47,441 nt of DNA from Candidatus Eiseniibacteriota bacterium (GTDB lineage: Bacteria > Joyebacterota > Joyebacteria > Joyebacterales > Joyebacteraceae). Positions 6,526 to 38,005 of this stretch are shown in pieces (within the stretch, counting starts at the first letter, position 1; every line of letters starts with the position of its first letter). The position numbers and the translations under genes are program-made. The stretch is taken from positions 1-47,441 of the forward strand of contig JAUVLP010000006.1 of assembly GCA_030600655.1 (NCBI GenBank), in the 5' to 3' direction. Below the pieces are notes generated by a model that was given only the letters and a program-made list of their open reading frames with translations, was not told the DNA's origin and made no database searches.

Positions 6526-6550
6526 AGAGTTCGCCTGCAAGGGGAAGAAC

Positions 6551-6961
6551 GTGCGGAGAAGACGGAAGCGCGACAATGACATGGATCCGATCGGCGACAT
6601 CAACGTGACATCGCTGGTCGATATCATGATGGCGCTTCTCATCATCTTCATAATAGTGGCCCCGATGATCGAGCAGGGGATAGATGTGACTCTGCCGACG
6701 GCGGAGCCGCGGAAGATCGATGTCTCGAATGTCGTGACGATAGCGATATCCAGCAACGAGAGAATCTATTTCGAGAACCAGCGCGTGACCCTCGAAGATC
6801 TGCGCGGACGCCTTGAGAACATCCACGCATCCGACGCCGACGCCGCTGTTTTGATCAAGGCCGACGAAGAGATTCAGTACGGTCGCGTTGTTGAAGTGCT
6901 CGACGCCGCAAGAGGCGCCGGCATCTCCAGACTGGCAATGGCCACGGAACCGGCTGAATAG
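6551..6961 (+). CDS. tolR: TolR (ExbD/TolR family)
   Basis: A 136-residue protein with one N-terminal helix. The sequence INVTSLVDIMMALLIIFIIV carries the conserved proton-binding Asp (residue 24). The periplasmic domain has the ExbD/TolR fold (VTIAISSNERIYFENQ, LIKADEEIQYGRVVEVLDAA). It partners TolQ in the proton channel. The GTG start at 6551 sits behind aaggggaag. It is 25 bases after tolQ and one base before the TonB/TolA-like gene, so co-translation is likely. Confidence 0.94.
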   Translation: MRRRRKRDNDMDPIGDINVTSLVDIMMALLIIFIIVAPMIEQGIDVTLPTAEPRKIDVSNVVTIAISSNERIYFENQRVTLEDLRGRLENIHASDADAAVLIKADEEIQYGRVVEVLDAARGAGISRLAMATEPAE

Positions 6962-6962
6962 C

Positions 6963-7670
6963 ATGCCACGATTTCTTGTCATATCGACGATCGTCCACTT
7001 GTTCCTGCTCATCCTCGTGCCGTTCATCCCGGGGCTGCTCGAGGAGGAGATGATGGGGCTCGAGACCTACACCGTGGAGCTCGTCGAACTGAGATCATCC
7101 CCACGGGAGCCGGAGCCGGAGCCCGTGGTGGAGGAAGCGGCTCCTGAGCCTGCACCGGAGCCTGAGCCGGTTGTTGAGGAGCAGATTCCTGACAACCCTC
7201 CGCCGAAGCGCGTGAGACGGGTGACATTCACACCTCCGGCGCGAAGCGAAAAGACACTCGAGGAGCGTCTGGCAGATCGCCTGAAAACTCAGGATGAAAT
7301 GCGTGATGAGCGGGTGGAGCCCGAGGAGACAGCTACGGAGCAGCCCCCGATTACAAGCGCCGTCGTTACCGCTTCTCGCTTCCCCTACAGCTGGTACCTG
7401 TCTATCATCCAGGGTAAGGTGAGATTGAACTGGAAGCAGCCCAGTTCCGTGCTGATAAGCGACGAGAAGCTCTCCACGCAGATCTCATTCAGGATCGATC
7501 GGAACGGGGGCATCGAGGTGGTGACCGTGCGCCGAACGTCGGGTCTTCAGAATGTCGATCAATCTGCAGTGAAGGCGATTCGAAACTCGGCTCCTTTTCC
7601 CCCGCTTCCCGACGATTACATGGAGAACCACCTGGACGTGACCATAGATTTCACGGTCGCAAGGAACTGA
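6963..7670 (+). CDS. TolA-position protein with TonB C-terminal domain
   Basis: A 235-residue periplasm-spanning protein: an N-terminal anchor helix (residues about 4-24), a Pro/Glu-rich linker (PEPEPVVEEAAPEPAPEPEP) and a C-terminal TonB-type domain (GGIEVVTVRRTSGLQNVDQS, then AIRNSAPFPPLP). The place between tolR and tolB and the TolQR partners make it the TolA equivalent, carrying force from TolQR to TolB/Pal. The linker is far shorter than the long helical domain II of Escherichia coli TolA and is TonB-like instead. An in-frame ATG at 6888 lies inside tolR and is not preferred, because the anchor helix begins at 6963. Confidence 0.88.
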   Translation: MPRFLVISTIVHLFLLILVPFIPGLLEEEMMGLETYTVELVELRSSPREPEPEPVVEEAAPEPAPEPEPVVEEQIPDNPPPKRVRRVTFTPPARSEKTLEERLADRLKTQDEMRDERVEPEETATEQPPITSAVVTASRFPYSWYLSIIQGKVRLNWKQPSSVLISDEKLSTQISFRIDRNGGIEVVTVRRTSGLQNVDQSAVKAIRNSAPFPPLPDDYMENHLDVTIDFTVARN

Positions 7671-7738
7671 CTCGGTCGATGAATCACCGGGCTCGGACCG
7701 AAGGTGAATGGTCGCGACCTGATGAAAGGGCGCACCCA

Positions 7739-9043
7739 ATGATACGGAGATTCCACAAAGGCTTCACCATCTCACTCTGTCTATCCGTTCTCCTGTGCGG
7801 TGCATCCGTTGCCGACTCGCAGGTTCATTTCAGCGTATCAAAGGCGTTCGGAGAGAAGGTGATCATTGCAGTGTCGCTCTTCGATGTGGACGGCGGCACC
7901 ATAGTGGCGCCCGAAGACGTTCGCGATGTCCTGCTGTTCGACCTTTCCAACTCCGGCCACTTCAGTCTTATTGGGAACACGGAGTTCGTGGACGAGACCG
8001 AAATCGACGACCGTATTTCGGGGCGGATCGATTTTCAGGAATGGGCGGCACTCGGTGCAGAAATCCTCGTGAAGGGGAAAATAGAGGGAACGCTCTCGGA
8101 AATGTCCATTGAAGCTACGGTGTACGATCTGGCGAAGGGCAAACCAATCTTCGGCAGGCGCTACTCGGGCCGGCACGGTGAGTGGCGGGCTGCCGTCCAT
8201 CACATATCAGATGATATCATCAAGCAGTTGACTGGAGAGGAAGGTATCGCGCAGACCCGGATCGCCTTTGTTTCAAACGTGACCGGGTCCAAGGAGATCT
8301 ACGTGATGGACTACGATGGCGAGAACCTGCGGAGGATTACCCGGGAGAATGCAATTGCCATCTACCCGGATTGGTTCCGCGGGGCGGAGGATCTCATATA
8401 CACGGTGATACGAGACAGTCGTCATGAGACGAGGCGAGTGCACATCGCGACAGGGACAACCTCACCAGTAACCTCCTTTCCCGGCCTTAATGCATTCGCT
8501 GCGCCATCGCCGAGAGGTGAAGAGGTTGTGATGGCCCTCTCCCGAGACGGCAACCCTGAAATCTATAGATTACGAGCGGATGGGAGCGAGCCGCGGCGGT
8601 TGACGTTCGGAAGAAACACTGAGTCCTCGCCATGCTGGTCGCCCGACGGTCGCCGGATAGCATATGTGTCTGATCGTTCGGGTGTGCCCCAGATATACAC
8701 AATGAATGCAACGGGGGGCAGTCCGCAGAGGCTTACGTATCAGGGGCGTTACAACACATCACCGGACTGGTCTCCCAAGGGAGATATGGTCACCTTCACG
8801 TCGAAGATAGATGGAGTGTTCCAGATATGTACGGTTGATGTCGAGAGCAAGGAAATAGTGCGCTTGACGGCGGGGCCCGGAGACAAGGAGGATCCTTCCT
8901 GGGCGAAGGACGGCCGGCACATCGTATACAGTGTGACTCTCAAAGGCGAATCAGATCTGTACATGCTCGATATCTATGAGTTGGAACCTGTAAGGCTCAC
9001 CAGCGGGGCTGGTGACTACCTGAGCCCGGCGTGGTCCGATTAA
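7739..9043 (+). CDS. tolB: Tol-Pal system protein TolB
   Basis: A 434-residue periplasmic protein, close to the usual TolB length. A signal peptide (hydrophobic core ISLCLSVLLCGASVADS) is followed by the alpha/beta N-terminal domain (PEDVRDVLLFDLSNSGHFSLIG) and a six-bladed propeller built from PD40 repeats such as CWSPDGRRIAYVSDRSG, DWSPKGDMVTFTS and WAKDGRHIVYS. TolB binds Pal and is released by TolA. The start at 7739 gives a clean signal peptide; an in-frame ATG at 7679 would add a charged 20-residue leader and is less likely. The ribosome binding site is weak (gatgaaaggg), so coupling to the upstream gene may matter. Confidence 0.95.
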   Translation: MIRRFHKGFTISLCLSVLLCGASVADSQVHFSVSKAFGEKVIIAVSLFDVDGGTIVAPEDVRDVLLFDLSNSGHFSLIGNTEFVDETEIDDRISGRIDFQEWAALGAEILVKGKIEGTLSEMSIEATVYDLAKGKPIFGRRYSGRHGEWRAAVHHISDDIIKQLTGEEGIAQTRIAFVSNVTGSKEIYVMDYDGENLRRITRENAIAIYPDWFRGAEDLIYTVIRDSRHETRRVHIATGTTSPVTSFPGLNAFAAPSPRGEEVVMALSRDGNPEIYRLRADGSEPRRLTFGRNTESSPCWSPDGRRIAYVSDRSGVPQIYTMNATGGSPQRLTYQGRYNTSPDWSPKGDMVTFTSKIDGVFQICTVDVESKEIVRLTAGPGDKEDPSWAKDGRHIVYSVTLKGESDLYMLDIYELEPVRLTSGAGDYLSPAWSD

Positions 9044-18535: not shown

Positions 18536-21232
18536 CTACTTTGCCACCTGTCTCGGTTTGCCGGTCGCACTCGGCTCGGACTCATCGGTCACGCCATACA
18601 TCCGCCACATTTCCATGAGGCTGTTGAGTTTGTCCGCCTTGCCCATGGTTTGGTAGATCGTCATCAGTGGCGGGTACAGATCGCGTCGCCGAGGCTCCCT
18701 GTTGAGAACGTGTTCGTACGCCTCCATAGCTATCTCATAGTGAGGGCGTGCCGCTTCTGTTTCTCCGCTTCGCTGGAAACCCTCGGCGAGCATCAGATGC
18801 ACGCCTCCGTAGCGCACCCACGCCTCCATGAGATTGGGTTGAGATGCGACAAGTCTGTCAGCGAATGGTAGAGCCTTTTCCGGCTGGAGGAGCCTTGCGG
18901 CGTAGATGGCGACGAGCCCGTTGAGAGCAGGCCCGTAATCGGGCGCGAACTTGAGCGCCCTTGTGTAGAGCATGATTGCCTCGTCCGTCTTCTGGGGGTC
19001 CTGCATTGCTACGAAGCCCAGTCTCGAGAATCCGGCCGCGTAGTTTGTGATGAGTCGCGCTGTGGAAGCGGACTTTTTCACCGTATCCACCACGCGCCAG
19101 TCATCATCGACATCCACGATGCTGTCATAGCGGTAGTTGTTGAAGATGTTGTCCCAGGTTCTCTCCTCATTGACCATGTGGCGCTCCGTCTTCCTCGTCA
19201 GCTTGAAGACCATGCCCTCGAGTTCGACGTTGTCATAGTAGCCCATGAAATCATCGACGGTCACGGCGAAGTAGATGGGGCGCTTGAACTCATTCGTCGC
19301 TATGATGTCGTGAATGGCCAGGTCGCGGAGCGTCACAAGACGTTGCTCCTGCGTATGTGGGTCGCGGGCCCAGAATGGATGCATATCCTCAATGTCTTCA
19401 TACGTGAAGCTGAGCGGCACTCCGCGGTCCTTGAGCTGCTTCAGGTACCAGTTGATCTGGCTGAGTGAGAGATTGACCACGTCGACATCAGGCCGCAGGC
19501 CTTCGACCTGCTGCAGGTACCAGAGAGGGAACGTGTCGTTGTCGCCGTTGGTGATCAGAATAGCGTTCTCGTCCAGAAAGTTCAGCATGTTCCAGCCGTA
19601 GTAGTAGGCGATATAGTTATCGCTGCGGTCGTTCCTCTGGAAATTGCCGATGAATGGTAGTAGCGCGAAGACGACAACGGCCACCGCCAGCAGGTTCCTC
19701 CAGTGCTTCCCAAGTCCCTTTGCCCACTCGACTATCGCGCCGGATCCGATGCCCATCCACAAAGCAAGACCCACGTACGACGGCACCCAGAAGTACTCTC
19801 TGCTCCTCACCTCATGGTCGGAGATGTTCAAATACATCAGAAGCCCGAGTGACGCTATTGCGAACGCGATCGCCATCATCGTGAAAGTCCGCCGGTCCTT
19901 GCGTGCGTGAGTGATGAAACCCCAGAGCGCAAGCAGGTAGGGCGTGATAATGACGAACGGATTCAGCGATGAGGAGAACTGCATCTTGTGATAGCCCCAC
20001 ACGATGCTCAACTGATTCGAGAACGATGTCCTGCGCGGGAAGAACCGCATCGGCTCGTACTGCGCCCGTCGCATGACCTCAAAGACGATCTTCCATGTCT
20101 TTGGGTCGGACTCGTTGATGGCTGGATTGAGTCGAGCACGTATCAGAAGGTACGCGTGGACGGAGAGCGCGATGATGGTGAGGGCAAGAGCGGCAAGGAG
20201 TGAGCGAGCCGGTACCTGTGGCTTGTCTATCACCCCGATCCTTGTCAGGTGCATGAAGAGGTAGATGGCCGCAGCGGAGATCGCCAAGCCAAGAATATAG
20301 ATTCCCGCTCCGCCCTGGCTCTGCGGGGAAGCTGCGTCGTTGCTGTGCTGGGACATTGTGGCGAACAGCAGGACCAACGCGATGACCAGAAGGCTACCCC
20401 ATAACCATGTTGGGAGGGTGGGCGTGAAGACCTTTGCCTTGGATCTCTTTGGCAGCTTGACCGGTTTGGGCCACAGTGCCGGAAGTGCGTAGAAGGCCGC
20501 GAATCCGAGCCCGATAACCCACATGGCTAGAGGGCCGCGCCACCACTCGATGTTTTTTGACAGCAGGACGAAGCCCATCAACAGAGGGACTGCCAGGAGC
20601 ACCGAGCCGATGTAGTTCCTTTCGAAGAGAATCATGAACACCAGAAAGGCAGGTGCCCACAGAAGGCTACCCATGTGGATGCCTATGCCGAGCGCGAGCA
20701 GATAGAAGACCAGATAGAGGTGTTTACGTGTGCGTGGAACTCCCCCCAGCTCCGACCAGCGAAGGACGAGCCAGAGGGTGACGGCCATGAGCAAGACGTT
20801 GGTCGCATAGACCTCGGCCTCGAGGGCGTTCTCCCAGAAGCTGAATGAGAAAGCCATGAAACAACTCGCCGTGATCCCTGTGATGTAGGTGGGGAGTCCA
20901 TCGGCGAAGGAGCGTATTTCGCCTTCCCACCTGCGCGCCATCCCTGCGAGTGCGAAGTAGAAGAAGGATATCGCCAGTGCCGCGGCGAGGACTGACATGA
21001 AGTTGATCGCGACCGCGACGTTTGGAAAGGGGAGGAAGCTGAAGAGGCGGGTCAGGAGCGTGTAGACCGGCGACCCGGGTGGATGTCCAATGCCCAGCGT
21101 GTAGCCTACGGCGATAAACTCGCCATTGTCCCAGAACGCAACGACTGGCGCGGTTGTTAACATGTAGGCGATGAAGGACAGCGCCCCCATTGTCCAGCCG
21201 ATCACGCGATTGGTCCGTCGATGCTGGTACAT
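18536..21232 (-). CDS. DUF2723 polytopic membrane protein with C-terminal TPR
   Basis: An 898-residue protein. Its N-terminal half has about a dozen hydrophobic helices and the DUF2723 signature: AFWDNGEFIAVGYTLGIGHPPGSPVY near residue 33-58 includes the acidic D/E pair typical of GT-C glycosyltransferases. A soluble part follows (ILITNGDNDTFPLWYLQQVE), then TPR-like helices near residues 730-870. DUF2723 proteins are common in FCB bacteria and are proposed protein O-mannosyltransferase-like enzymes using lipid-linked sugars; that activity is inferred. The start at 21232 follows AGAGGAG by seven bases. It is the last gene of the tilS-to-cdaA run and lies 11 bases after cdaA. Confidence 0.9.
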   Translation of the reverse strand: MYQHRRTNRVIGWTMGALSFIAYMLTTAPVVAFWDNGEFIAVGYTLGIGHPPGSPVYTLLTRLFSFLPFPNVAVAINFMSVLAAALAISFFYFALAGMARRWEGEIRSFADGLPTYITGITASCFMAFSFSFWENALEAEVYATNVLLMAVTLWLVLRWSELGGVPRTRKHLYLVFYLLALGIGIHMGSLLWAPAFLVFMILFERNYIGSVLLAVPLLMGFVLLSKNIEWWRGPLAMWVIGLGFAAFYALPALWPKPVKLPKRSKAKVFTPTLPTWLWGSLLVIALVLLFATMSQHSNDAASPQSQGGAGIYILGLAISAAAIYLFMHLTRIGVIDKPQVPARSLLAALALTIIALSVHAYLLIRARLNPAINESDPKTWKIVFEVMRRAQYEPMRFFPRRTSFSNQLSIVWGYHKMQFSSSLNPFVIITPYLLALWGFITHARKDRRTFTMMAIAFAIASLGLLMYLNISDHEVRSREYFWVPSYVGLALWMGIGSGAIVEWAKGLGKHWRNLLAVAVVVFALLPFIGNFQRNDRSDNYIAYYYGWNMLNFLDENAILITNGDNDTFPLWYLQQVEGLRPDVDVVNLSLSQINWYLKQLKDRGVPLSFTYEDIEDMHPFWARDPHTQEQRLVTLRDLAIHDIIATNEFKRPIYFAVTVDDFMGYYDNVELEGMVFKLTRKTERHMVNEERTWDNIFNNYRYDSIVDVDDDWRVVDTVKKSASTARLITNYAAGFSRLGFVAMQDPQKTDEAIMLYTRALKFAPDYGPALNGLVAIYAARLLQPEKALPFADRLVASQPNLMEAWVRYGGVHLMLAEGFQRSGETEAARPHYEIAMEAYEHVLNREPRRRDLYPPLMTIYQTMGKADKLNSLMEMWRMYGVTDESEPSATGKPRQVAK

Positions 21233-21243
21233 CTGTTTCTCCT

Positions 21244-22011
21244 CTAGCTTCCGGTGGTCTCGGCAGGCTTCGGTTTCAGGATCTGTGACAGGCGTTCCCT
21301 GAGATCGCTCAGAGAGACGTCTCTCGATACCTGTCCTCCCAGGGCGAATGATATCTGACCTGTCTCCTCAGATACAACAACTACCAGCGCATCCGTTTCC
21401 TCCGTCAGACCAACACCGGCGCGGTGTCTCGTGCCCAGCGTATGCACATAGTATGGATTCTGAGAGAGGGGCAGGGTGCACCTGGCCGCCACGATCTGGT
21501 TGCCGCTAACAATGACGGCACCGTCATGAAGCGGTGTAAGCGGCGTGAAGATGGAGACGAGCAGGCTTGAGACGACGGGCGCGTTGAGCATTACGCCGGT
21601 CTGGTAGTAATTCATCAGCCGTGCCTCACGCTCAATGACTATCAGTGCTCCAGTCTTCTTTGCAGCCAGAGCCTTCACGGCGGAGACGATGGCGTCTATC
21701 GATTCATGAACCTCGAGCTTTACGAACGGTCTCAGGAATCGGCTTTGTCCCATCTGGGCGAGCATTCTCCTGAAGTCGTCCTGGAACAGGATTATGAAAA
21801 TGATGGCCCACAGTCCCTTGAGTCCCGACATGAGCCAGTTCAGAGCGTCGAATTCGATCCACCGAGCGATGAAACCCACGACGACTATGATAAACAGTCC
21901 CACGAACATCTGCATGGCGCGCCTGCCGCGCAGCAGCAGGAGCAGCTGGTATATGACGAACGAGACTACCGCGACGTCAATGACATCTATGATGATTCTC
22001 GAACCAGTCAC
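21244..22011 (-). CDS. cdaA: diadenylate cyclase CdaA (DacA)
   Basis: A 255-residue c-di-AMP synthase: three N-terminal membrane helices, then the DisA_N catalytic domain with DGA at residues 163-165 (PLHDGAVIV) and RHR at 195-197 (GTRHRAGVGL). Both motifs that bind ATP and metal are intact. c-di-AMP typically controls potassium and osmolyte balance and wall integrity. The GTG at 22011 is preferred because GGAG lies nine bases before it; an in-frame TTG at 22020 directly touches that GGAG. The usual CdaA partner CdaR (YbbR) is not next to it here. It follows folP by about 30 bases. Confidence 0.92.
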   Translation of the reverse strand: MTGSRIIIDVIDVAVVSFVIYQLLLLLRGRRAMQMFVGLFIIVVVGFIARWIEFDALNWLMSGLKGLWAIIFIILFQDDFRRMLAQMGQSRFLRPFVKLEVHESIDAIVSAVKALAAKKTGALIVIEREARLMNYYQTGVMLNAPVVSSLLVSIFTPLTPLHDGAVIVSGNQIVAARCTLPLSQNPYYVHTLGTRHRAGVGLTEETDALVVVVSEETGQISFALGGQVSRDVSLSDLRERLSQILKPKPAETTGS

Positions 22012-22041
22012 GTGAGCCAACTCCGTTCGATGTGTGCCCCG

Positions 22042-27762: not shown

Positions 27763-28992
27763 TTACTGCGGTGCCGGTGACCTGACTGTGGCGAGGAGCT
27801 GGTTCGCCTTCTCGCTCTGCTCCGGGAATCCAGCGGCGCGCTCGAGAGCCCGCACGGCGTCCGCCGTGCGCTCGAGCTGGATGGCGCAGTAGCCCATCAT
27901 GAGATGGGCCCTCGCGACCGTACTGTCCGCCTCGACGCAGTTGCGGTAGGCCTCGTAGGACTCCTCGTAGCCCTTTCTCATAAAGTGCAGATCTCCGAGA
28001 AGCGACCAGAGCCGCGAAGTCGGGTCCCGTTCGAGGGCGTGGTCGAGCGCGGCGAGGGCAGCATCGAAGTCGTACGAAGCCAGATGCGCCGAGGCGAGGC
28101 GCTCGAAGTCCTGCGCGGAGCCACCGCCGGCGAGAGCACGCGCGTAATGGGTGCTCGCCTGAGCCGGCACCCCCACGGTCAGGAAGAGATCCCCGAGCGT
28201 CATCTCCTCCTCGTGGGAGAGTGGGCGTAAGTAGCCGGCTATTGTCAGCATGATCGCGGCCTGGTCGTAGTCGCCTGCGCTCGCGAAGTAGCGGAACCCA
28301 AGTCGCCACGCCTCGGGGTTGTTGCTGTGCTGCGACAGTGCCTCGCTGAGCGCCGCGCGTCCCTTCTCGTCGTCTCCGAGATCGAGATACGCCATGATGA
28401 GAGCACGGTGCCACTCCATCCGGGGCTCGCCGTGCGCACTTGATATGAGCTCCTCCAACATGGGGACGGCCTCGAGAGATCTTCCGTCCATGACCAGTGC
28501 CGCGGCAGCGAAGAAGAGCACGTTGGGTTCTTTCCATTCGCTAACTTCGTACCCACTTGCGAGGGCCGACGCCGCGAGGTCGAATTGCCCCATGTTGTAC
28601 GCGAGCTCTCCCAGGTTGAGCCACCCTTGGGCGAAGAGAGGTTCCATTGCCACGGAGGCTTGGTAGGCGGAGAGAGCCTCCTCCAGATCTCCACGCCTCG
28701 CCCAGCTCAAGGCCAAGTGGAACCGCACCAGGAAGTGATCCTGATCGGGATGCCTGAGGAGAAACCCCGAAATGATGTCTACCGCGGCCTCCGTATTGCC
28801 TTGCTCGCGTTCCTTCTGGGCCTCGAAGAGGACGAGGCGCGCCTCCGCGGGGACATCGGCGACGTCGTCGATCCTCCGCTCGATGATGCCGCCATCCGCG
28901 GCCCACAGAAACCCCACGGGGAGCCACAGGACGAGGGCGAGCCACGCGATGAGCTGAATGCGTGCGGTAGTATTCTGAGAGGTGTTTCTCAT
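27763..28992 (-). CDS. TPR-repeat protein of the TonB cluster
   Basis: A 409-residue protein with one N-terminal hydrophobic stretch (IQLIAWLALVLWLPVGFLWA, ending in a plausible signal cleavage site) and then tetratricopeptide repeats over most of its length, such as ALSYQA-type helices in LEEALSAYQASVAMEP and YEESYEAYRNCVEADSTVAR. It is therefore probably periplasmic. It is the last gene of the operon, its ATG overlapping the tonB stop by four bases (ATGA). TPR proteins occupy the same place in Vibrio TonB2 clusters, where they are thought to help the complex at the wall or outer membrane; the role here is inferred. Confidence 0.88.
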   Translation of the reverse strand: MRNTSQNTTARIQLIAWLALVLWLPVGFLWAADGGIIERRIDDVADVPAEARLVLFEAQKEREQGNTEAAVDIISGFLLRHPDQDHFLVRFHLALSWARRGDLEEALSAYQASVAMEPLFAQGWLNLGELAYNMGQFDLAASALASGYEVSEWKEPNVLFFAAAALVMDGRSLEAVPMLEELISSAHGEPRMEWHRALIMAYLDLGDDEKGRAALSEALSQHSNNPEAWRLGFRYFASAGDYDQAAIMLTIAGYLRPLSHEEEMTLGDLFLTVGVPAQASTHYARALAGGGSAQDFERLASAHLASYDFDAALAALDHALERDPTSRLWSLLGDLHFMRKGYEESYEAYRNCVEADSTVARAHLMMGYCAIQLERTADAVRALERAAGFPEQSEKANQLLATVRSPAPQ

Positions 28993-29612
28993 GTCTGGCT
29001 CAGGTTGAAGTGGATCGTCATCACGATCCAGGCCGTGACTGCTTTCCCCCGGATCTTCCCAGGCGCGAACTTCCACTGCGGCACCGTTCGCCGCACGGCA
29101 TCCTCAAACGTACCGCTAGGACGAGCATCGAGGATCTGCACGTCTCCGACCGTTCCCTCTGTCGTAACCAGCATCCTCACTTGCACCGCTCCCTCGATAC
29201 CACGTTCGCGAGCCGCATACGGATAGGGGGGCGGCACGCGAACGATTGGCTGGGGTGGCTGATCGAGCTCATACGCCTCGAACACGAACTCCTGCGCACC
29301 ACTGATGCCACCCACACCCCCAAGGTCGATCGCAACCCCGAGATCCATGGGCCCCGCGGAACTCAGGTCGGGGCGGAGGACTTCCGGCATGAAGTCGAGC
29401 TTCTCTTTGGGCTTCGGCCTCTCGGGTTGCTTGGTTCTCTCCTCCTCTGGGAGCGAGGGGATCTCGAGTCTCACGAGGTTCACCGCGATCGGGTTGGTCA
29501 TATCCTGGGGAACCCTCCGCTCCCGTAGCAGAAGCGCCGCCAATCCGAACAGAACGAGATTGACGCTGAGAGCCGTCGGCAGGATCCACACGGGGAAACG
29601 ACCAATGCGCAT
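28989..29612 (-). CDS. tonB: TonB energy transducer
   Basis: A 207-residue protein with an N-terminal anchor helix (residues about 8-29), a short Pro/Lys/Glu linker (KQPERPKPKEK) and a C-terminal TonB domain: PPPYPYAARERGIEGAVQVR, DVQILDARPSGTFEDAV and VPQWKFAPGKIRGKAV. The YPYAARERGIEG block is the classical TonB/TolA signature. It carries proton-motive energy from ExbB/ExbD to an outer-membrane receptor; the divergent receptor gene at 33287 is the obvious partner. The linker is short for spanning a full periplasm, as in TonB2-type proteins, which use accessory proteins. ATG overlaps the exbD stop by one base. Confidence 0.92.
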   Translation of the reverse strand: MRIGRFPVWILPTALSVNLVLFGLAALLLRERRVPQDMTNPIAVNLVRLEIPSLPEEERTKQPERPKPKEKLDFMPEVLRPDLSSAGPMDLGVAIDLGGVGGISGAQEFVFEAYELDQPPQPIVRVPPPYPYAARERGIEGAVQVRMLVTTEGTVGDVQILDARPSGTFEDAVRRTVPQWKFAPGKIRGKAVTAWIVMTIHFNLSQT

Positions 29613-30031
29613 CAGGATTCTTCCTCCCGCTTCGCTGCGAGGCTCACGGTCTTGGCGCCGGCCAGCCGACACTGATCCATGACAGTGACAATGGCGCCTG
29701 TTTCGCTCCGCCGGTCGGCGACGATCACGACGCTGCTCTCGGGATCGTCCACGAGAGCACGCTCGATGTGAGCGCGGACACTTCGTATGTCGATCCGTTT
29801 GCCTTCGAAGTAGGCATCGCCCTCCGCTGTCACCCCGATCAAGATGCCGGCGTGCTCCTTGATTTTCGCTGTCGACGCCGTTGCCTTCTGTACATCGATG
29901 CCGGACTCCTTCACGAAGCTCGTTGTGACGGCGAAGAAGATCAGAAGGATGAAGACCATGTCGATCAGCGGTCCGAGGGGGATATCGACACGGTCGTTCT
30001 TGCCGCGCAACGTTCCACGCACGTTTATCAT
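29612..30031 (-). CDS. exbD: ExbD biopolymer transport protein
   Basis: A 139-residue one-helix protein. PLGPLIDMVFILLIFFAVTT carries the conserved proton-channel Asp (residue 24). The periplasmic domain (GILIGVTAEGDAYFEGKRID, SVVIVADRRSETGAIVTVMD) is the ExbD fold. It forms the motor with the two ExbB-type proteins encoded just before it. Start ATG overlaps the exbB stop by four bases. Position next to tonB and a TPR gene separates it from TolR at 6551. Confidence 0.93.
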   Translation of the reverse strand: MINVRGTLRGKNDRVDIPLGPLIDMVFILLIFFAVTTSFVKESGIDVQKATASTAKIKEHAGILIGVTAEGDAYFEGKRIDIRSVRAHIERALVDDPESSVVIVADRRSETGAIVTVMDQCRLAGAKTVSLAAKREEES

Positions 30032-30747
30032 AAGGCCTCACTCTCTATGTAGACTCCGGCTGGAGCGATCTCGCCGATGGCGAGCCCGCCTTCGCGCTGG
30101 TCGATGCACGCGTTCTCGGAACGCAGCCGGTCGGTCAGCGTGCATGATGAGCGACGTACGATGCGAGAGATGATCATCACGTCCTCCTCAAGCTGTGTCG
30201 CGAGTCGCGAAGACCGCTGCAACAGCATGCCGCTCAACAGGAGACCCGGCACGGCTACAAGGAGACCCGCCTCCGTCGTGATGAGAGCGACCGAGATCCC
30301 GCCGGCCATCGCGTTGGCGTTTCCCGTTCCGAACAGCGAGATAACCTGGAAGGTCTCGATCATGCCGAGTACGGTTCCAAGGAGTCCAAGGAGCGGCGCG
30401 ACCGAGACGAGGACACCGATTATGGCGAGGAAGCTGCTGAGTCCGGCCCGTTCGCGCATCGCGCACTGACGAAGGATATCGACGTCCAGCCGTGGGAAGC
30501 CCGATCGTCGGGCGAGGAAGTTCCTGACGAGGCGTGCGCGGAGTCCGTTACCTTCCACGCATACTGCGCCGCTTCGGAGCAGCGTGATTACTTCATCGAT
30601 GGTGATGTCGCCGCGCCTGAGGCTCCGGAGGAAGCTCAGGCGCTCCAACATGAGCGTCCAGAGCACAAGCGACGCGACCGCTAGCGGAACCATGATCCAG
30701 CCGCCCTGTTGCAGGTACTCTAAGGTTCTGCGAAGCACCTCCATCAT
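30028..30747 (-). CDS. exbB: ExbB (MotA/TolQ/ExbB family), short form
   Basis: A 239-residue protein with three hydrophobic segments and the core motif APLLGLLGTVLGMIETFQVI followed by GGISVALITTEAGLLVAVPG. It is the proton-channel subunit that surrounds ExbD. It begins with a membrane helix directly (GGWIMVPLAVASLVLWTLM), unlike the long ExbB encoded upstream. Overlaps of four bases with both neighbours mean tight coupling. Confidence 0.92.
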   Translation of the reverse strand: MMEVLRRTLEYLQQGGWIMVPLAVASLVLWTLMLERLSFLRSLRRGDITIDEVITLLRSGAVCVEGNGLRARLVRNFLARRSGFPRLDVDILRQCAMRERAGLSSFLAIIGVLVSVAPLLGLLGTVLGMIETFQVISLFGTGNANAMAGGISVALITTEAGLLVAVPGLLLSGMLLQRSSRLATQLEEDVMIISRIVRRSSCTLTDRLRSENACIDQREGGLAIGEIAPAGVYIESEAL

Positions 30748-32219
30748 CCATCCATCCTTTCGCGTGTCTCTTTCACTATCGCCCGATCAGTGATCTGCAC
30801 CACTCGATCGGTGCTGCTCGGGCTCCTTTCTTTCAAGATGATGTTTGCAAGATGCACCGCCTTCTCCTCCATCTCGCCGATGATGCCATCAGCGCGGCGG
30901 GAGAGGAACGTGTGGAAGAGCATGATAGGGATTGCGACCGTGAGGCCTATTTCCGTCGTGATGAGGGCTTCGCTGATCCCACCCGACATGAGGCGGGGGT
31001 CGCCGGTTCCGTAGAGCGTTATCACGCGGAAGGTCTCGATCATGCCCGTGACCGTTCCCAGGAGTCCGAGGAGCGGCGCGACGGCTCCGAACACGGCGAG
31101 AATGGGGAGCCCCCGTTCTACCCGCGGGAGTTCACGGAGTATGGCTTCTTGCATGACGCTCTCGAGCGTCATTCTGTCTTCCTCCCTTGCCGAGAGACCA
31201 TCCGCGATCACCTCGATGACAGGCATCTTCCTGGATGCGTGCCTTCGGACGATTGACTCGCAGCCGTCCCAGTCGCCACTCGATGCGAGCGAGGATACTT
31301 CTCCCATGATCCTGCCGGTGTTCCCGTGTACTCTTTTGAGGAAGGCGAACTTGTACACGATGATGAGGAGCGCCGCCAAGCCGAGCGCGAGGATCGGGTA
31401 GACGATCGGGCCGCCGAGAAGGATGTGATCCCGCAAACCCATATCCTGCGTAATTTGCCGGAGCGCTGCGCCCCCGGAGATGTCGATGACGACCGATTCC
31501 TCACGCCCGTCCATGTATCGCTTGAGCAGGCGCTGCATCTTCCGAGAGGGAAGGGCCGATAGGGCAAACAGCTTCTGTTCGCTCTGCGAGTGCGTGAGGA
31601 AGCCAACCTCACGGCCGTCGCCGGTGCGATAGAGAGTGGTGAAAGTACCGAGGGTCATGATGTCGCCGATCTGCTCTTCACCGTTTCGCCCGACGAAGGT
31701 TCCCTCCGAAAAGCCCACCTGTCCCCCGAGCTCCATCTCTTCGAGAAGCACCGCGGCCATGCCTGAGATATCGTCGATGTCCGGGAAATAGCCTTGCCGG
31801 AGGATCTGCCGCAACGGCGCCAATCGCTGCGGCCGGAGCGATGTCAGGGGCGATTGTTCAAGTAGAGCCGAAAGATCGCGCGCCGCGAGACGCACGTTGC
31901 CGGAGATCTCCTTGTACTGTAGCTCTTCCCCTGCCCATCGATCGGCGAGTCTCTCGCGTCGCTTCTCGAGCGCTGCGGCTCTTGCCTCGAGTTCCCCGAG
32001 CCGACTCTCCAGCCTGCGCTCCTCGGCTTCCAGCCTCTCAACTTCGGGCAACAGGGTCGCGCAGTCAGCCAGGATGGCTTCTTCGACCAGCCTCGCGCGC
32101 TCGACCGCTGCCGCACGGTCCATATCGGCTCTTCGCGCCGCTTCCCGGACATCCTGGGCATCCACACTCAGGGACGTAAGCGCGATGACCGCGCCGGCGA
32201 TCAGGAGAAGCTTCTTCAT
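30744..32219 (-). CDS. TtpC-like long ExbB with periplasmic coiled-coil extension
   Basis: A 491-residue protein. A signal peptide (MKKLLLIAGAVIALTSLSVDA) is followed by a long coiled coil (LPEVERLEAEERRLESRLGE, LEKRRERLADRW) and a soluble domain up to about residue 270. Then come three membrane helices with the MotA/TolQ/ExbB core: APLLGLLGTVTGMIETFRVI and GGISEALITTEIGLTVAIPI. This architecture is that of TtpC, the extra ExbB-like subunit of TonB2 systems in Vibrio. The start at 32219 has GGGAGG ten bases upstream and overlaps the DUF3450 stop by four bases; a longer frame upstream lacks a signal. Confidence 0.9.
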   Translation of the reverse strand: MKKLLLIAGAVIALTSLSVDAQDVREAARRADMDRAAAVERARLVEEAILADCATLLPEVERLEAEERRLESRLGELEARAAALEKRRERLADRWAGEELQYKEISGNVRLAARDLSALLEQSPLTSLRPQRLAPLRQILRQGYFPDIDDISGMAAVLLEEMELGGQVGFSEGTFVGRNGEEQIGDIMTLGTFTTLYRTGDGREVGFLTHSQSEQKLFALSALPSRKMQRLLKRYMDGREESVVIDISGGAALRQITQDMGLRDHILLGGPIVYPILALGLAALLIIVYKFAFLKRVHGNTGRIMGEVSSLASSGDWDGCESIVRRHASRKMPVIEVIADGLSAREEDRMTLESVMQEAILRELPRVERGLPILAVFGAVAPLLGLLGTVTGMIETFRVITLYGTGDPRLMSGGISEALITTEIGLTVAIPIMLFHTFLSRRADGIIGEMEEKAVHLANIILKERSPSSTDRVVQITDRAIVKETRERMDG

Positions 32220-32971
32220 GGCTGGATCCTCCCAAGCGGCAGAGCGATGAGCTGCACGGGGCGTATCCGCGAGGCCATCTCGATCGCCCGCGCAATGGTG
32301 CGATCGTACTTGTCGGGAAGTTCCACCCATGTCCACGTCGCGCGATCGAAAGTCCCGGTTTTCGCTCCATCAGGTGTGCGCCAGAAGAGCGCGAGGCGGC
32401 CCACGCGCAGCACGTCGACAAAAATCGGCTCACCGTCAAGCAGGATCTCGTCTTGGCTCACATCCGCGGTCTTGCCGTACTCCATTTCGACCTGCATCGC
32501 CTCGAGGAGTCGCCGTAGCTTTTCAGCACCGGTGACCTCAGGGCGTGCAAACTCCTCGCCGAGCGAAGCGAGCCGGTGCTTGCGTTCATCCCGAAGAAAG
32601 GGGAGGTCGCTTGCGACGGAACCCTCCAGCCTCGCCATGATCACACTGAGCGTGTCCTGAAGGCTCGTCTGGAGGAGTTTCGATTCGTGCATGCGCCGCT
32701 CGAGCTCCGCTGTGCTCTCCTCAAGCCCCACAACTTCTCTTTTTCGAACGCTGATGTGCTCGGCCAGGTACCTCACGTTCGCCTTCGCGGTGCGGTACCG
32801 GGCTTCGAGTTCCGCTTGCTCGGTCGCCCACACATCCCGCTCCTCTTGTGTCCGCTTCTGGATGTCGACCGTTCCGTGCACCGTATCTCGTAGATCGGCG
32901 GAAGTGGATTGTGCTTGCACCTGGCTCGCCGCCACGACCAGGAGCAGCACGACACCTGCCAGCCTGTTCAT
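32216..32971 (-). CDS. DUF3450 family periplasmic coiled-coil protein
   Basis: A 251-residue protein with a signal peptide cut after VQAQ (about residue 21). A coiled coil follows (AELEARYRTAKANVRYLAEH, VGLEESTAELERRMHES), then a globular end (VDVLRVGRLALFWRTPDGAK). That matches DUF3450, a family almost always encoded directly before TtpC-type ExbB genes. It is thought to interact with the TtpC periplasmic domain. First gene of the six-gene operon, with a very strong site AGAAGGAGGA before the ATG. Confidence 0.9.
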   Translation of the reverse strand: MNRLAGVVLLLVVAASQVQAQSTSADLRDTVHGTVDIQKRTQEERDVWATEQAELEARYRTAKANVRYLAEHISVRKREVVGLEESTAELERRMHESKLLQTSLQDTLSVIMARLEGSVASDLPFLRDERKHRLASLGEEFARPEVTGAEKLRRLLEAMQVEMEYGKTADVSQDEILLDGEPIFVDVLRVGRLALFWRTPDGAKTGTFDRATWTWVELPDKYDRTIARAIEMASRIRPVQLIALPLGRIQP

Positions 32972-33016
32972 GCATCCTCCTTCTACTTGGATCCGCGCTT
33001 GCCGCCGGAAGAGCTC

Positions 33017-33045
33017 ACGGTCGGCGGGTGTCCCACCCCGACCGT
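33017..33045. promoter_or_regulatory. long inverted repeat in the divergent TonB/receptor intergenic region
   Basis: ACGGTCGG (33017-33024) and CCGACCGT (33038-33045) are perfect arms, with GGTG/CACC able to extend the stem inside. It lies 46 bases upstream of the DUF3450 gene and 240 bases before the receptor. It could be an operator shared by both units or a leader hairpin of the minus-strand operon. No Fur-box match (GATAAT repeats) was seen in 32972-33286. Confidence 0.4.
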
Positions 33046-33286
33046 CACACCGCAGTTCATCTCAACCGGAGTGCTCAAGACTACAGCTCCAAAGATAACG
33101 CACTCAAGTTAGTGTTCCGTGAATGCCGTGCTGGTTCTCGATTAGGATTTGCCGCTCACCCGAGACGAATTCCTTACGCGGCGCTAGGAATTTCTGAACA
33201 CTGCAGAATTAGACTATCTACGTTCATGCTCGTGCAGACCACCAGCTTTCATCTTGAGAAATGACCGCCAGCAACAAGGAGCCGAC

Positions 33287-36073
33287 GTGATCGATCACAT
33301 GAAGAGAGTCAGGATCGCGGTCCTCGCTATTGCGTTGATTCTTCCAGCCGCCGTGTTTGCCGAGAGCACGTCGCTGCACGGGGCGGTGCGCGATGAGGAG
33401 TCCGGAGAGGGACTGTCGGGCGCGAGTCTGCTTCTCCTGGGCACGACAATCGGCGCTTCTACGGATCTTGACGGCGAGTACCGCATCGATGAGATTCCGC
33501 CGGGCACCTACAACATGAGGGTCTCGTTCGTGGGCTACGAGACGAAGGTCGTACCGAACGTCCGCGTCGAGGCGGGAGAATCGGAGAAGCTCAATGTCGA
33601 ACTCCTGCGCCAAGACGTGGCCGCAGCCAGCTACACGATCGACGATTTCGTCGTTACCGCAGACCGCGTTCTCTCGACGGAGATTGCGCTCATCACGGAA
33701 CGGATGAAGGCGATCACTATCGGTGACGCGATTAGCGCAGAGCGCATCTCCAAGTCACCAGACGGCACGAGCAGCGACGTGCTTAAGCGGGTAACAGGAC
33801 TCTCGGTCGTGGACAACAAGTTTGTGTACGTCAGGGGAACCACCGACCGGTACAGCACAACTTGGCTCGACGGCGTGGCAACGAGCAGCGCCGACACGGA
33901 TGTTGACCGCCGGAGCTTCGCGTTCGACATCTTGCCGGCGTCCCTCCTCGCAAGTGTCGTTATTGTGAAGACCGCAACGCCTGATCTTCCGGGCGACTTC
34001 GCGGGTGGTCTCGTGCAACTGAACACGTGCGACATCCCTGACGGCCGACAGTTCTCGGCATCGTTCTCCTCCGCCTACGATGAGAACACGTCTACAAACG
34101 GCATCCTCCGATCGGAAGGGAGCAGCACCGACTGGCTTGGCGTGGACGACGGCATCCGAGAACTGCCGTCGTACGCGCCCAGTGGGGGCAATAACTATAA
34201 CGAACTTGCGAGGGAGCTTCCCAACACGTGGTCAACGCGGACCGAGAAGGCGCCGCTCAACAGCTCGTGCAGTCTGTCGTACGGTGATCGCATCGACTTC
34301 GGCGCTGAGGATGGCCGTCATGTGCTCGGACTGGTCGCCGGGTTCAAATACGCCAGTTCGTACGAGAGGGTCGAGTTCGTCGAGTCGCCTCACGACACGG
34401 GAGGCTATGAGCTGTACCACAAGGAGGGAACGCGGGACCGATACAAGGTCATCGGGTCCGGGCTTCTGAACCTCGCGTACACTCCCTGCGAAGGACACCA
34501 GTACACCCTGAGGAGCCTCTACATGCGCGACGCCCGCGACCAAGTGAGCTACTCGGAGGGAAGCGTAAACGAGAACAGCGGCCCCGGAGGGAAGACCTAC
34601 ACAATCGAATGGGATGAGCGCTCCAGCTACGGTTTGCAGTTCGGCGGCAGACACGAGCTTGGCTGGCGCCGCGGCGCGGAGCTCCAATGGAAGTTGTTCC
34701 TCTCAAACTCAACGGCGCGCGAGCCCGACCGCAAGCAGGCCGACTTCCAGCTACGCGCCGATGGAACCCACAGTCTGAGCGAGAACAGCCGCACGTGGTC
34801 AGATCTCTACCAGCGCTCGCGTGGCGCGAGGGCCGACTTCACGCTGCCCTTCGGCCGATCGAAGGTGAAGGCAGGCCTGTACATCGAAGACCGCGGCAGG
34901 GAGTACAGGACCGATTCGTTCTTCACCGATACGGGGACCATCCGACCGCCCAACTACTGGATTCGGGTCTGCGGAATCGACACCATTTTCGTGGCCGAGA
35001 ACTACGATGCGAGGAAGCTGACCTTCCGGATCAAGAACACCCACACGGGGGAGTACGATGCCACACACCGACTCGACGCGTACTACATCATGCTTGATCA
35101 TCCATTCTCTCTGGGCTCGTACCGCTTCCGACTCGCCGGTGGCGCGCGCGTAGAGCACTCTCTGCAAGACGTCGCGGCACTGAAGAAGGAAGGCTCTGAG
35201 GAGCCCGTCAACTCGCGCATCGACAAGATGGACGTGCTGCCCTCCATCAACCTTACATACATGCTGACCGAGCGGGCAAACATACGTTTCAGCGCCTTCC
35301 ATTCGGTCAACCGACCGGAGCTTCGCGAAATGGCCGACGTCAAGTACTTCGACTTCAATGAGGGCGCGAACGTCCAAGGCAACCCTGATCTCAAGCGCTC
35401 GGTCATCAAGAACTATGACGTGCGCCTCGAGGCCTTCCCGGGCGGCGACGAGGTGCTCGCAGTCAGCTGTTTCTACAAGGATCTATACGATGCGATCGAA
35501 CTCAAGATGATCCCCTCGTCGGATTACAAGTACGTCAGGACGTGGTTCAACTCGCCGAGGGGATACAACTACGGATTCGAGATCGAGGCGAGAAAGCAGC
35601 TCGGATTCCTCGGGGGGTTCCTCGATGACTTCACGATTGCGGGCAACTATGCATGGGTCCATTCGTCGGTTGAGTACCTCTACGAGTGGCGCTGGCAGGA
35701 TGACGAGGGTGATTGGCACACGGGCCGTGAGATCAGGACCCGTCCGCTCCAGGGACAGTCGCCATGGACGGTGAACCTCACGCTTCTCTACGAGCATCCC
35801 CGGCTTGGCACGTCGGTCAGCGTCCTCTACAACAAGATCGCAAGACGCCTCTACTCCGTGTCCGGTGAGCGGGACGGGGATCTCTGGCAGGAGTCCCGCG
35901 AGGTACTGGATCTTGTGGTGACGCAGAAGCTGTTTGACCAGTGGGAACTCAAGCTCAGCGCGAAGAACCTCATGGCATCGGACGACGTGAAGACGATGGG
36001 CCCCGAGAGGAGCGTACACACCAAGGAATCGCGCGGTGCGGCATATTCTCTCTCGATTGGCTTCGGTCTCTGA
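33287..36073 (+). CDS. TonB-dependent outer-membrane receptor
   Basis: A 928-residue receptor. Signal peptide (VRIAVLAIALILPAAVFAES) is followed by a carboxypeptidase-regulatory-like beta domain (about 27-110; SLHGAVRDEESGEGLSGASL, DLDGEYRIDEIPPGTYNMRV). Next is the plug (ISKSPDGTSSDVLKRVTGLS ... YVRGTTDRYSTTWLDG) and then a long beta barrel rich in aromatic strands, ending SLSIGFGL. The start codon is GTG at 33287, seven bases after AAGGAG, rather than ATG 12 bases later or the open frame from 33254. It is divergent from the TonB operon, which should power it. The plug/regulatory-domain type is the one common in Bacteroidota; substrate unknown, and no iron-regulation site was seen. Confidence 0.92.
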   Translation: MIDHMKRVRIAVLAIALILPAAVFAESTSLHGAVRDEESGEGLSGASLLLLGTTIGASTDLDGEYRIDEIPPGTYNMRVSFVGYETKVVPNVRVEAGESEKLNVELLRQDVAAASYTIDDFVVTADRVLSTEIALITERMKAITIGDAISAERISKSPDGTSSDVLKRVTGLSVVDNKFVYVRGTTDRYSTTWLDGVATSSADTDVDRRSFAFDILPASLLASVVIVKTATPDLPGDFAGGLVQLNTCDIPDGRQFSASFSSAYDENTSTNGILRSEGSSTDWLGVDDGIRELPSYAPSGGNNYNELARELPNTWSTRTEKAPLNSSCSLSYGDRIDFGAEDGRHVLGLVAGFKYASSYERVEFVESPHDTGGYELYHKEGTRDRYKVIGSGLLNLAYTPCEGHQYTLRSLYMRDARDQVSYSEGSVNENSGPGGKTYTIEWDERSSYGLQFGGRHELGWRRGAELQWKLFLSNSTAREPDRKQADFQLRADGTHSLSENSRTWSDLYQRSRGARADFTLPFGRSKVKAGLYIEDRGREYRTDSFFTDTGTIRPPNYWIRVCGIDTIFVAENYDARKLTFRIKNTHTGEYDATHRLDAYYIMLDHPFSLGSYRFRLAGGARVEHSLQDVAALKKEGSEEPVNSRIDKMDVLPSINLTYMLTERANIRFSAFHSVNRPELREMADVKYFDFNEGANVQGNPDLKRSVIKNYDVRLEAFPGGDEVLAVSCFYKDLYDAIELKMIPSSDYKYVRTWFNSPRGYNYGFEIEARKQLGFLGGFLDDFTIAGNYAWVHSSVEYLYEWRWQDDEGDWHTGREIRTRPLQGQSPWTVNLTLLYEHPRLGTSVSVLYNKIARRLYSVSGERDGDLWQESREVLDLVVTQKLFDQWELKLSAKNLMASDDVKTMGPERSVHTKESRGAAYSLSIGFGL

Positions 36074-36283
36074 GCGGTTCACACGATTTTCTGACACTGC
36101 TCCCACACTGGGGACATGGAGTCTTGGTAAAATCTCCCTCGATGCCGAGTTGGTGGCAGGAGGTTCAAACTGTGGACGAGGCTGTGTGCGGAAGGAGGTG
36201 CGCCTGGTCGGAGGAGGCTTCAGCAGTTCTCACAGCACTACGTCAATAGAACACCTTGCGGTTCCATAGAGAGGAGTGTTTCC

Positions 36284-38005
36284 ATGAAGTCATGCATCAA
36301 GACAGGAATCCTGCTGGTCCTGATCCTGAGCACCGTGCTGGGCGCGCAGGCTTTCGCTGGTTGGAAGCCCCAAGTAGTGCTCGGTCCGGGGACCGGTCCG
36401 GTACACGCGGAGGAACCATATCACCAGAGTTGGCACCGCACTCTGTCCGCCGACACGCTCTACGTCCTGACCGGGTTCTACTATGTCGATTCGCTCTACA
36501 CCCTTACGATTCCGGAAGGCACCGTTGTTATGGGCGACACGACCGCAACCCTCGTCGTTGCGCGGGGCGGTAGGATCCACGCCACTGGCAGCGAGGAACG
36601 GCCCGTCGTCTTCACAAGCATGAAGGAGCCGGGGCAGCGGAACCCGGGCGATTGGGGCGGCGTCATCATCCTCGGCAACGCTCCCGTGAACCGCGTCAAC
36701 CCGGTCATCGAGGGAGGTCTCATAGAAGGACGCTTCGGCGGGAACGATCCCGACGATGACTCGGGTGAGTTCTACTACTGTCGGATCGAGTTCCCCGGCC
36801 ACCGCATAGAGGAAGGCAACGAGGTCAACGGCCTCACGATGGGGGGCGTCGGACAGAACACCGAGATCCATCACGTCCAGGTGAGCTACTCGAACGATGA
36901 CAGCTTCGAGTGGTTCGGTGGCAACTGCGACAGTGACTACCTGTGTGTGCTGGGCGGTCTCGATGACGTGTTCGATACTGACTTCGGCCATTCTGGCAGG
37001 CACCAGTTCTGCTTCTGCTTGCGCGATCCCGACTGGTCGGATGCCGAAGGCCAGAGCAACGGCTTCGAATCCGACAGCTACAAGCCCGCTGGGCTGGCTC
37101 CACCGATCACCTCGACGGCATTTGCCAACTGCACCATCGTCGGGCCCGAACGAACCGACGCCCTCGTAGGCAACCTCCCGCCGGGACACGCCTTCGAGTA
37201 CAGTGCTGTGCTGCGTCGCTGCACGAAACACAAGATCCACAACTCGGTCATCATGGGCTTCCCGTGGGGTTTCAGCGTCCGCGACGCCTGTACACAGAAC
37301 TTCGCTCTGACCGACACGATGAACGTGCACTACACGAGCGTTCAGGCAAGCGCCACGCCGAGCGGCTCCTCGAGCATCCACGACGAGGTGCGCTGGGCCG
37401 GGGTGACGGCTTGGTTTGACGCGGAGCCTGGGAATAATCCAACGCAGTCGCAGCCGCGCATGCCGAGTTCGGTCGGCCTCACGGACATGAGCGACCTCAA
37501 TAATCCAAACCCCATTCCTCTGCCAACATCGGAGCTCGTCACCACGCCGGCCAGCTGGGTACACCGGGACGTCGCTGCCTACTTCCAGCAGGTGACATAC
37601 CGCGGAGCCTTTGACCCGTCGCGCGGCATGGAGAGCCAGTGGGCAGCGAAGTGGACGAACTTCGACCCGCAGAACACCGATTACGATCTGGATGCAACCG
37701 GGGTCAATTCCGACGTGCCGCTGGGTGGTAGCAGCATTCTCGGCATCTCCCCGAACCCATTCAACCCGAGGACCATGGTGGCCTTCCGGCTTGGGCAGAC
37801 CTCACCCGTAGACATCGTCATCTACGATGCCGCCGGCCGCGTTGTCAGGACAATTCTCAGGGCCGGCGAGCTGGCGCCGGGAAATCACGAAGTTGCGTGG
37901 GACGGAACCGATGCCGTCGGGAGCAGCGTGGCTTCGGGCGTCTACTTCTGCCGGCTTCAGGCAGGTGAGCACATCGATGTCAGAAGAATGGTTCTTCTGA
38001 AGTAG
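36284..38005 (+). CDS. secreted protein with type IX-like C-terminal sorting domain
   Basis: A 573-residue protein with signal peptide (GILLVLILSTVLGAQAFAG). The body (about 50-460) alternates short strands with Gly/Asn turns and looks like a right-handed beta-helix or related repeat fold (YTLTIPEGTVVMGDTTATLV, RIHATGSEERPVVFTS, GDWGGVIILGNAPVN). It has many Cys (GGNCDSDYLC, FCFCLRD, FANCT), likely disulfides. The last 85 residues are an FlgD-like sorting domain (ILGISPNPFNPRTMVAF ... ASGVYFCRLQ ... RRMVLLK). Such domains guide export through type IX-like secretion and attachment at the surface. RBS gagaggag at 36271. It follows the receptor by 210 bases and is probably its surface partner; that is inference. 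Confidence 0.85.
   Translation: MKSCIKTGILLVLILSTVLGAQAFAGWKPQVVLGPGTGPVHAEEPYHQSWHRTLSADTLYVLTGFYYVDSLYTLTIPEGTVVMGDTTATLVVARGGRIHATGSEERPVVFTSMKEPGQRNPGDWGGVIILGNAPVNRVNPVIEGGLIEGRFGGNDPDDDSGEFYYCRIEFPGHRIEEGNEVNGLTMGGVGQNTEIHHVQVSYSNDDSFEWFGGNCDSDYLCVLGGLDDVFDTDFGHSGRHQFCFCLRDPDWSDAEGQSNGFESDSYKPAGLAPPITSTAFANCTIVGPERTDALVGNLPPGHAFEYSAVLRRCTKHKIHNSVIMGFPWGFSVRDACTQNFALTDTMNVHYTSVQASATPSGSSSIHDEVRWAGVTAWFDAEPGNNPTQSQPRMPSSVGLTDMSDLNNPNPIPLPTSELVTTPASWVHRDVAAYFQQVTYRGAFDPSRGMESQWAAKWTNFDPQNTDYDLDATGVNSDVPLGGSSILGISPNPFNPRTMVAFRLGQTSPVDIVIYDAAGRVVRTILRAGELAPGNHEVAWDGTDAVGSSVASGVYFCRLQAGEHIDVRRMVLLK

Follow-up and report, generated by a model that had tools for sequence, protein, structure and literature searches.

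What does a TonB-type motor carry when its genes lie back to back with those of an outer-membrane receptor and a secreted surface protein in a poorly known phylum? We examined this question in contig JAUVLP010000006.1 of a Candidatus Eiseniibacteriota bacterium, a stretch of 47,441 nucleotides (hereafter the window) that belongs to a 2.6-Mb draft genome, 99% complete, whose relatives are Candidatus Eisenbacteria/Effluviviaceae metagenome genomes. The window contains an eight-gene unit in which a six-gene motor is transcribed divergently from the genes for a TonB-dependent receptor and a putative ElpS/FII-family secreted protein. From its gene content, its inheritance, and the phosphate-regulon (Pho) linkage and promoter boxes of its relatives, we conclude that the unit probably serves uptake across the outer membrane under phosphate starvation.

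Make-up and inheritance of the unit

The minus-strand genes at 27763-32971 encode DUF3450, TtpC, ExbB, ExbD, TonB and TPR proteins (Table 1). The original prediction, made from the sequence, had placed six overlapping genes, a receptor and a secreted protein here and called the motor TonB2/TtpC-type; all eight genes are where it placed them, the overlaps measure 4, 4, 4, 1 and 4 bases, and Pfam identifies all six motor components in the same order, with the ExbB, ExbD, TonB_C and TPR matches all exceeding their cut-offs. The motor is a complete TtpB-TtpC-ExbB-ExbD-TonB-TtpD set. Its content and order are those of TonB2/TtpC-type systems, and by homology it is predicted to drive the receptor, whose gene is divergently adjacent to the motor and co-inherited with it. 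A separate operon elsewhere in the window has the complete tolQ-tolR-TolA/TonB_2-tolB order; therefore, the TtpC set is a second motor and not Tol. A Tol-Pal identity of this set was considered and rejected because of that operon, the set itself lacking the tolQ-tolR-tolA-tolB order.

The predicted link between the motor and the secreted protein holds within the family. Of 20 genomes of the Candidatus Eisenbacteria family, nine carry the DUF3450/TtpC motor, and precisely these nine also encode the secreted protein (9/9 versus 0/11; Fisher p = 6e-6, with no correction for shared ancestry). The identical divergent eight-gene order recurs in three genera (L025-L031), with receptors 52-98% identical, which argues that the gene set is not a product of chance; in a fourth genus (L032) the contig ends past the motor and the secreted protein lies on another contig. 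The outer flanks (TilS/FtsH and ClpB/PFK) are common to the window's genus only. Since the eight genes stay together across genera while the genes outside them differ, the unit has been kept as a block.

Beyond the family, we scanned the genomes of 84,980 species with the secreted core, its sorting tail removed, and read the best 80 of 231 relatives, which belong to Bacteroidota, Ignavibacteria, Krumholzibacteriota and Eisenbacteria. Of the 62 informative loci outside the family, 54 have this kind of receptor immediately upstream in the same orientation (46 clean, plus eight with slightly overlapping stop-to-stop frames). A linked motor was found among these best 80 only in Eisenbacteria and on one Krumholzibacteriota contig with the same divergent order (L055). 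Proteobacteria were added by tblastn of plasmid records: motor, secreted protein and receptor occur side by side in Pseudoalteromonas (4/4 records read) and Alteromonas, and Indioceanicola and Sphingomonas carry the secreted protein and receptor with type II secretion genes. Receptor and secreted protein form a module that is old and widespread among Bacteroidota, Ignavibacteria and Proteobacteria; because most of its loci are without a linked motor, the pair is the conserved core and the motor an optional part. In these neighbourhoods receptor and secreted protein keep to each other, and the motor is mostly unlinked outside the family. The pairing of motor and surface protein had also been regarded as a new combination. 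It is not peculiar to this bacterium, since Pseudoalteromonas and Alteromonas already carry the same eight families.

Several variants of the pair were observed. One group of Bacteroidia (L069, L078, L091, L093, L095 and L100) has the secreted lipoprotein with no adjacent receptor, and a DUF4349 gene takes the receptor's place in five surveyed loci, four of them within this group. Two Eisenbacteria copies of the secreted protein (L051:4779-7874 and L053:8476-11622) are ~1030-1050 residues long and belong to pairs with no linked motor, one receptor being split into two frames. In other genera, a secreted protein of 190-230 residues with a dockerin-like end (..DLDGDGAVTPIDLSNFAG..) is encoded between receptor and secreted protein (L026:2943-3623, L028:5141-5797, L029:10060-10626, L030:13722-14405, L051:4124-4744 and L053:7872-8492); such an extra small gene was found in two sister genera and is missing in the window's genus, and the two proteins checked gave no Pfam match.

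The history of the motor bears on whether it and the pair are merely accidental neighbours, with the motor serving the cell's other receptors. Such an accident would fit the Bacteroidota loci in which the pair has no linked motor, as well as the DUF3450 motors that stand apart from the pair. A strong DUF3450 gene is present in 25 of the 386 genomes examined, 16 of them outside the family, and most of the 20 outside loci that were read keep the same motor order; the secreted protein is found in four of these 20, and the receptor also in three of the four. On the TtpC tree, however, linkage to the secreted protein requires four changes, of which at least three are forced, versus 9.9 with shuffled labels, and the linked loci do not form one clade. 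Different motor lineages have joined up with one and the same pair. This points to a functional link and indicates that the ligand is not determined by the type of motor. Together with the strict co-occurrence within the family, the equivalent linkage in Krumholzibacteriota and the same type of box on both promoters, this makes an accidental arrangement very unlikely. A TtpC protein search of plasmids at E <= 1e-30 returned one Aeromonas record only, TtpC being too divergent for a plain search.

Phosphate genes and promoter boxes

We ranked the recurring neighbours of the pair outside the family without prior choice, with one representative per cluster checked against Pfam. After the pair and its frame-shadow open reading frames, the top groups are Pho-type: a histidine kinase and an OmpR-type regulator, PstS, PstB, PstC/A and a metallophosphoesterase, with Porin_O_P, PhoU and others further down the ranking. 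In the sister genus g4, the contig that carries the unit runs on into porin-pstS-pstC-pstA-pstB-phoU; the porin and PstS were checked with Pfam, and the other genes were assigned by position and by likeness to the operon of the window's genome. The latter genome encodes phoR-pstSCAB-phoU on contig C52, where PstS, PstC and PhoU exceed their equivalog cut-offs. PstS is present in 9/9 family genomes with the unit versus 2/11 without it (p = 3e-4). In Alteromonas, the gene order is phoB-phoR-pstS-like-oxygenase-ElpS-like-receptor-motor. Because this set lies behind phoB-phoR, and because relatives of the secreted protein are made on phosphate starvation and linked to receptors, the ligand is probably a phosphorus compound. 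A metallophosphoesterase also recurs beside the pair, together with a glycosyltransferase, the one checked being Glyco_trans_1_3 (L114, L119, L075, L079 and L106), as in phosphate-starvation lipid remodelling of the PlcP/Agt type.

Within the 327-bp space between the divergent genes, ~7-base direct repeats with an 11-bp period lie on each side and are conserved in the three genera. PhoB/PhoP boxes are spaced with this 11-bp period. The pattern of the motor box is also found upstream of pstS in the same genome. A matrix trained solely on the unit's repeats singles out the regions preceding pstS, porin and phoB in these genomes, and eight pst/porin upstream regions each exceed 300/300 shuffles and all 281 control stretches. 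The exact pattern matches three times in the window's genome versus three times in the reversed control, so the count is uninformative; it is the placement that informs, two of the three matches lying before the motor and before pstS. No convincing Pho boxes of the E. coli type were found in the window's intergenic region. Six gammaproteobacterial loci gave an independent test outside this phylum: of their 18 canonical Pho-box matches, seven lie <=450 bp upstream, on the sense strand, of secreted-protein or DUF3450 genes (p ~9e-7). These comparisons suggest that Pho-type boxes are strong in the sister genera, present in the gammaproteobacterial versions and degenerate in the window's genus.

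Several observations weigh against a role in phosphate starvation. When the window's genus, whose boxes are degenerate, is excluded from training, its receptor box is second best in 47 kb and its motor box falls outside the top four; because its own boxes are this weak, regulation of the window's copy is suggested rather than shown. The window itself contains no Pho genes, the genome's copies sitting on another contig, and many loci of the secreted-protein family have no Pho neighbour in the flanks read. ElpS of Caulobacter crescentus is itself no phosphatase, and uptake was not shown for its neighbouring receptor CC0171 (PMC2996285). Finally, the TtpC systems of Vibrio serve iron (PMC6957404).

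This last point raises the question of whether the unit takes up iron or siderophores like Vibrio TonB2, which has the same six-gene motor content, is iron-induced and is needed for siderophore use (PMC6957404). However, there are no siderophore genes within the eight-gene unit, the receptor and its partner are of a phosphate-starvation family, and the separate motor couplings described above leave the ligand unfixed by the motor. We regard an iron unit as highly improbable, and iron as the default role was rejected on the Pho-type family, neighbours and boxes.

Table 1. Genes and candidate promoter elements of the unit, with other features of the window.
Feature	Position	Strand	Observations
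ttpD-like TPR gene, 409 residues	27763..28992	-	many TPR families above cut-offs; cf. Vibrio TtpD2; start corrected to 28992
tonB, 207 residues	28989..29612	-	PF03544 (TonB_C) 7.8e-20; ATG 29612; overlap with TPR gene 28989-28992 (4)
exbD, 139 residues	29612..30031	-	PF02472 1e-25; overlap with tonB 29612 (1, TGATG)
exbB, 239 residues	30028..30747	-	PF01618 1.2e-25; overlap with exbD 30028-30031 (4)
ttpC-like gene, 491 residues	30744..32219	-	weak DUF3450-like N-terminus PF11932 1.5e-8, MotA_ExbB PF01618 1.4e-32; start corrected to ATG 32219; overlap with exbB 30744-30747 (4)
ttpB-like gene (DUF3450), motor accessory protein, 251 residues	32216..32971	-	PF11932 3.4e-63 (Pfam); homologue class of Vibrio TtpB2; its stop overlaps ttpC at 32216-32219 (4)
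Candidate regulator box, motor promoter	33105..33124	-	TTCAC-N6-CTAACTTG, 11-bp period; CTAACTTG identical in three genera
Candidate regulator box, receptor promoter	33172..33200	+	CCTTACG N4 GCTAGGA N4 CTGAACA; three half-sites, 11-bp period; conserved across genera in non-coding DNA
Candidate -10 element, receptor promoter	33210..33215	+	TAGACT; identical in all eight aligned loci
TonB-dependent receptor, 924-928 residues	33287..36073	+	regulatory-like domain (PF13620/PF13715), plug (PF07715), barrel (PF00593); start probably GTG 33287 (AAGGAG 5 nt upstream) or ATG 33299; TIGR01782 229 bits, under that model's cut-off
Putative ElpS/FII-family secreted protein, 573 residues	36284..38005	+	signal peptide, beta-strand-rich core ~25-470, C-terminal sorting domain ~484-573
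tolQ-tolR-TolA/TonB_2-tolB operon	5848..9043	+
TMEM260-like O-mannosyltransferase	18536..21232	-
CdaA-type cyclic di-AMP synthase	21244..22020	-	adjoins dihydropteroate synthase and FtsH
C25 (gingipain-type) peptidase, 1571 residues	42052..46767	-	CARDB, right-handed beta-helix, FlgD-like tail

The secreted partner and a model of uptake

Export of the partner through a sorting domain, as first proposed, agrees with what we found. Its tail scores 28.9 bits against TIGR04183 (type IX secretion system; cut-off 23), the protein matches FlgD_ig at 2e-10, and the genome encodes SprA (SprA_N 3e-24) and PorV (2e-27) homologues; the type IX route is therefore available, and the protein combines a type A sorting domain with type IX core genes in the genome, as a type IX cargo should. 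An AlphaFold2 model (mean predicted local distance difference test score 87.8; 42 sequences) was compared with the PDB, and its C-terminal 90 residues match FlgD as well as the type IX tails of PorZ, PorU and NucA. The predicted core consists of many short regular strands, for which the fold search of the PDB gave no convincing relative (best template modelling score, TM, 0.21); a PDB sequence search with the secreted core and DUF3450 returned only a weak sorting-tail match. The tail is not the sole mode of display: by a crude rule, 45 of 90 relatives have a lipobox without a tail, 35 a tail without a lipobox, four apparently both and six neither; the sorting domain foreseen for the surface partner is one of two alternatives for the same core. 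A C25 peptidase encoded near the unit is another likely type IX cargo (Table 1). By tblastn, the core matches proteins of Indioceanicola (1e-37) and Sphingomonas (2e-21) that lie in ElpS-receptor-type II secretion neighbourhoods; through these and published descriptions, rather than by alignment to CC0170 or Fjoh_0546, the protein would belong to the ElpS/FII family.

The nature of the core might instead suggest uptake of polysaccharide or organic carbon, in which the beta-rich protein would bind or act on a glycan and the phosphate link would be secondary (e.g. through phosphorylated glycans). Receptors with a regulatory-like domain and plug are typical of glycan uptake, FI/FII proteins are reported to be similar to plant-cell-wall-degrading enzymes (PMC8115612), and the short regular strands would fit. 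We nevertheless consider this unlikely, as the eight-gene unit contains neither a glycoside hydrolase nor SusD, the fold search matched no enzyme convincingly, and Pho linkage recurs across phyla.

For the phosphate-starvation unit, we infer the following course. Low phosphate would act through a PhoB-type regulator that turns on both divergent promoters, as their shared boxes suggest. The type IX system would export the secreted protein, which would be held on the cell surface, where it may capture or present a phosphorus-containing compound or help a phosphatase to do so. The paired receptor, presumably in contact with the secreted protein, would import the product to the periplasm, powered by its private motor, as homology to Vibrio TonB2 predicts, and phosphate would then pass through PstSCAB, which the genome encodes elsewhere. 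The original view of a self-contained uptake system is retained in that a complete motor accompanies a co-inherited pair; its ligand, which that view left open, is narrowed by neighbourhoods, promoter boxes and published relatives that point to phosphorus. More tentatively, TtpC-type motors, known only from iron uptake, may have been co-opted on several occasions to power, as private engines, a receptor that scavenges phosphorus, and in bacteria of the Fibrobacterota-Chlorobiota-Bacteroidota (FCB) group a type IX-displayed, beta-helix-like partner may hand a large phosphorus compound (e.g. a phosphorylated polymer) to it. We hold this to be possible rather than probable; if true, it would be an active outer-membrane phosphorus route, as opposed to passive phosphate porins.

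Comparison with known systems

A literature search of limited coverage returned no paper joining ExbB, a TonB receptor, phosphate limitation and the Pho regulon. Vibrio TonB2 (TtpB2, TtpC2, ExbB2, ExbD2, TonB2, TtpD2) has the same six motor protein types as the window, and TtpB2 and TtpD2 are essential for TonB2 transport; it differs in serving iron-siderophore uptake and in having no reported ElpS-type partner (PMC6957404). In Caulobacter crescentus, ElpS (CC0170) is made on phosphate starvation and is encoded beside CC0171 and type II secretion genes, an order shared by Indioceanicola and Sphingomonas; the proteins of these two match the window protein. Unlike the window protein, ElpS is a lipoprotein released in a type II secretion-dependent manner, and no motor is reported in its cluster (PMC2996285). 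In Flavobacterium johnsoniae, the TonB-dependent transporter Fjoh_0545 and the lipoprotein FII (Fjoh_0546) belong to a phoBR cluster induced by phosphate depletion (PMC8115612). Like the window receptor, Fjoh_0545 has Plug, CarboxypepD_reg-like and OMP_b-brl_3 domains and stands beside a secreted protein, and our Bacteroidota loci share glycosyltransferase and PhoBR-type genes with this cluster. Fjoh_0546 differs as a lipoprotein with no type IX tail and no linked TtpC motor reported, and its homology is drawn from neighbourhood and description, not alignment.

The closest counterparts are in Alteromonadales, where the eight-gene set is already present: for example, Pseudoalteromonas donghaensis D0907_RS17320-17355 and Alteromonas macleodii pBGP9 ALTBGP14_RS19855-19890 contain the same eight families as the window's unit. 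They differ in having all genes on one strand and E. coli-type Pho-box matches upstream, and in that no type IX tail was detected on their secreted proteins. The novelty of the window's unit lies in its divergent, type IX-displayed form outside Proteobacteria, together with genomic evidence that TtpC motors, known for iron, may also serve phosphorus. One receptor and partner module thus spans Bacteroidota, Ignavibacteria, Krumholzibacteriota, Eisenbacteria and Proteobacteria, with variants of export (type IX tail, lipoprotein, type II secretion-linked) and an optional private motor, and it bears on what the phosphate-starvation TonB receptors of many bacteria carry. Pseudoalteromonas, a tractable host with the whole eight-gene set, makes this question of receptor cargo directly testable.

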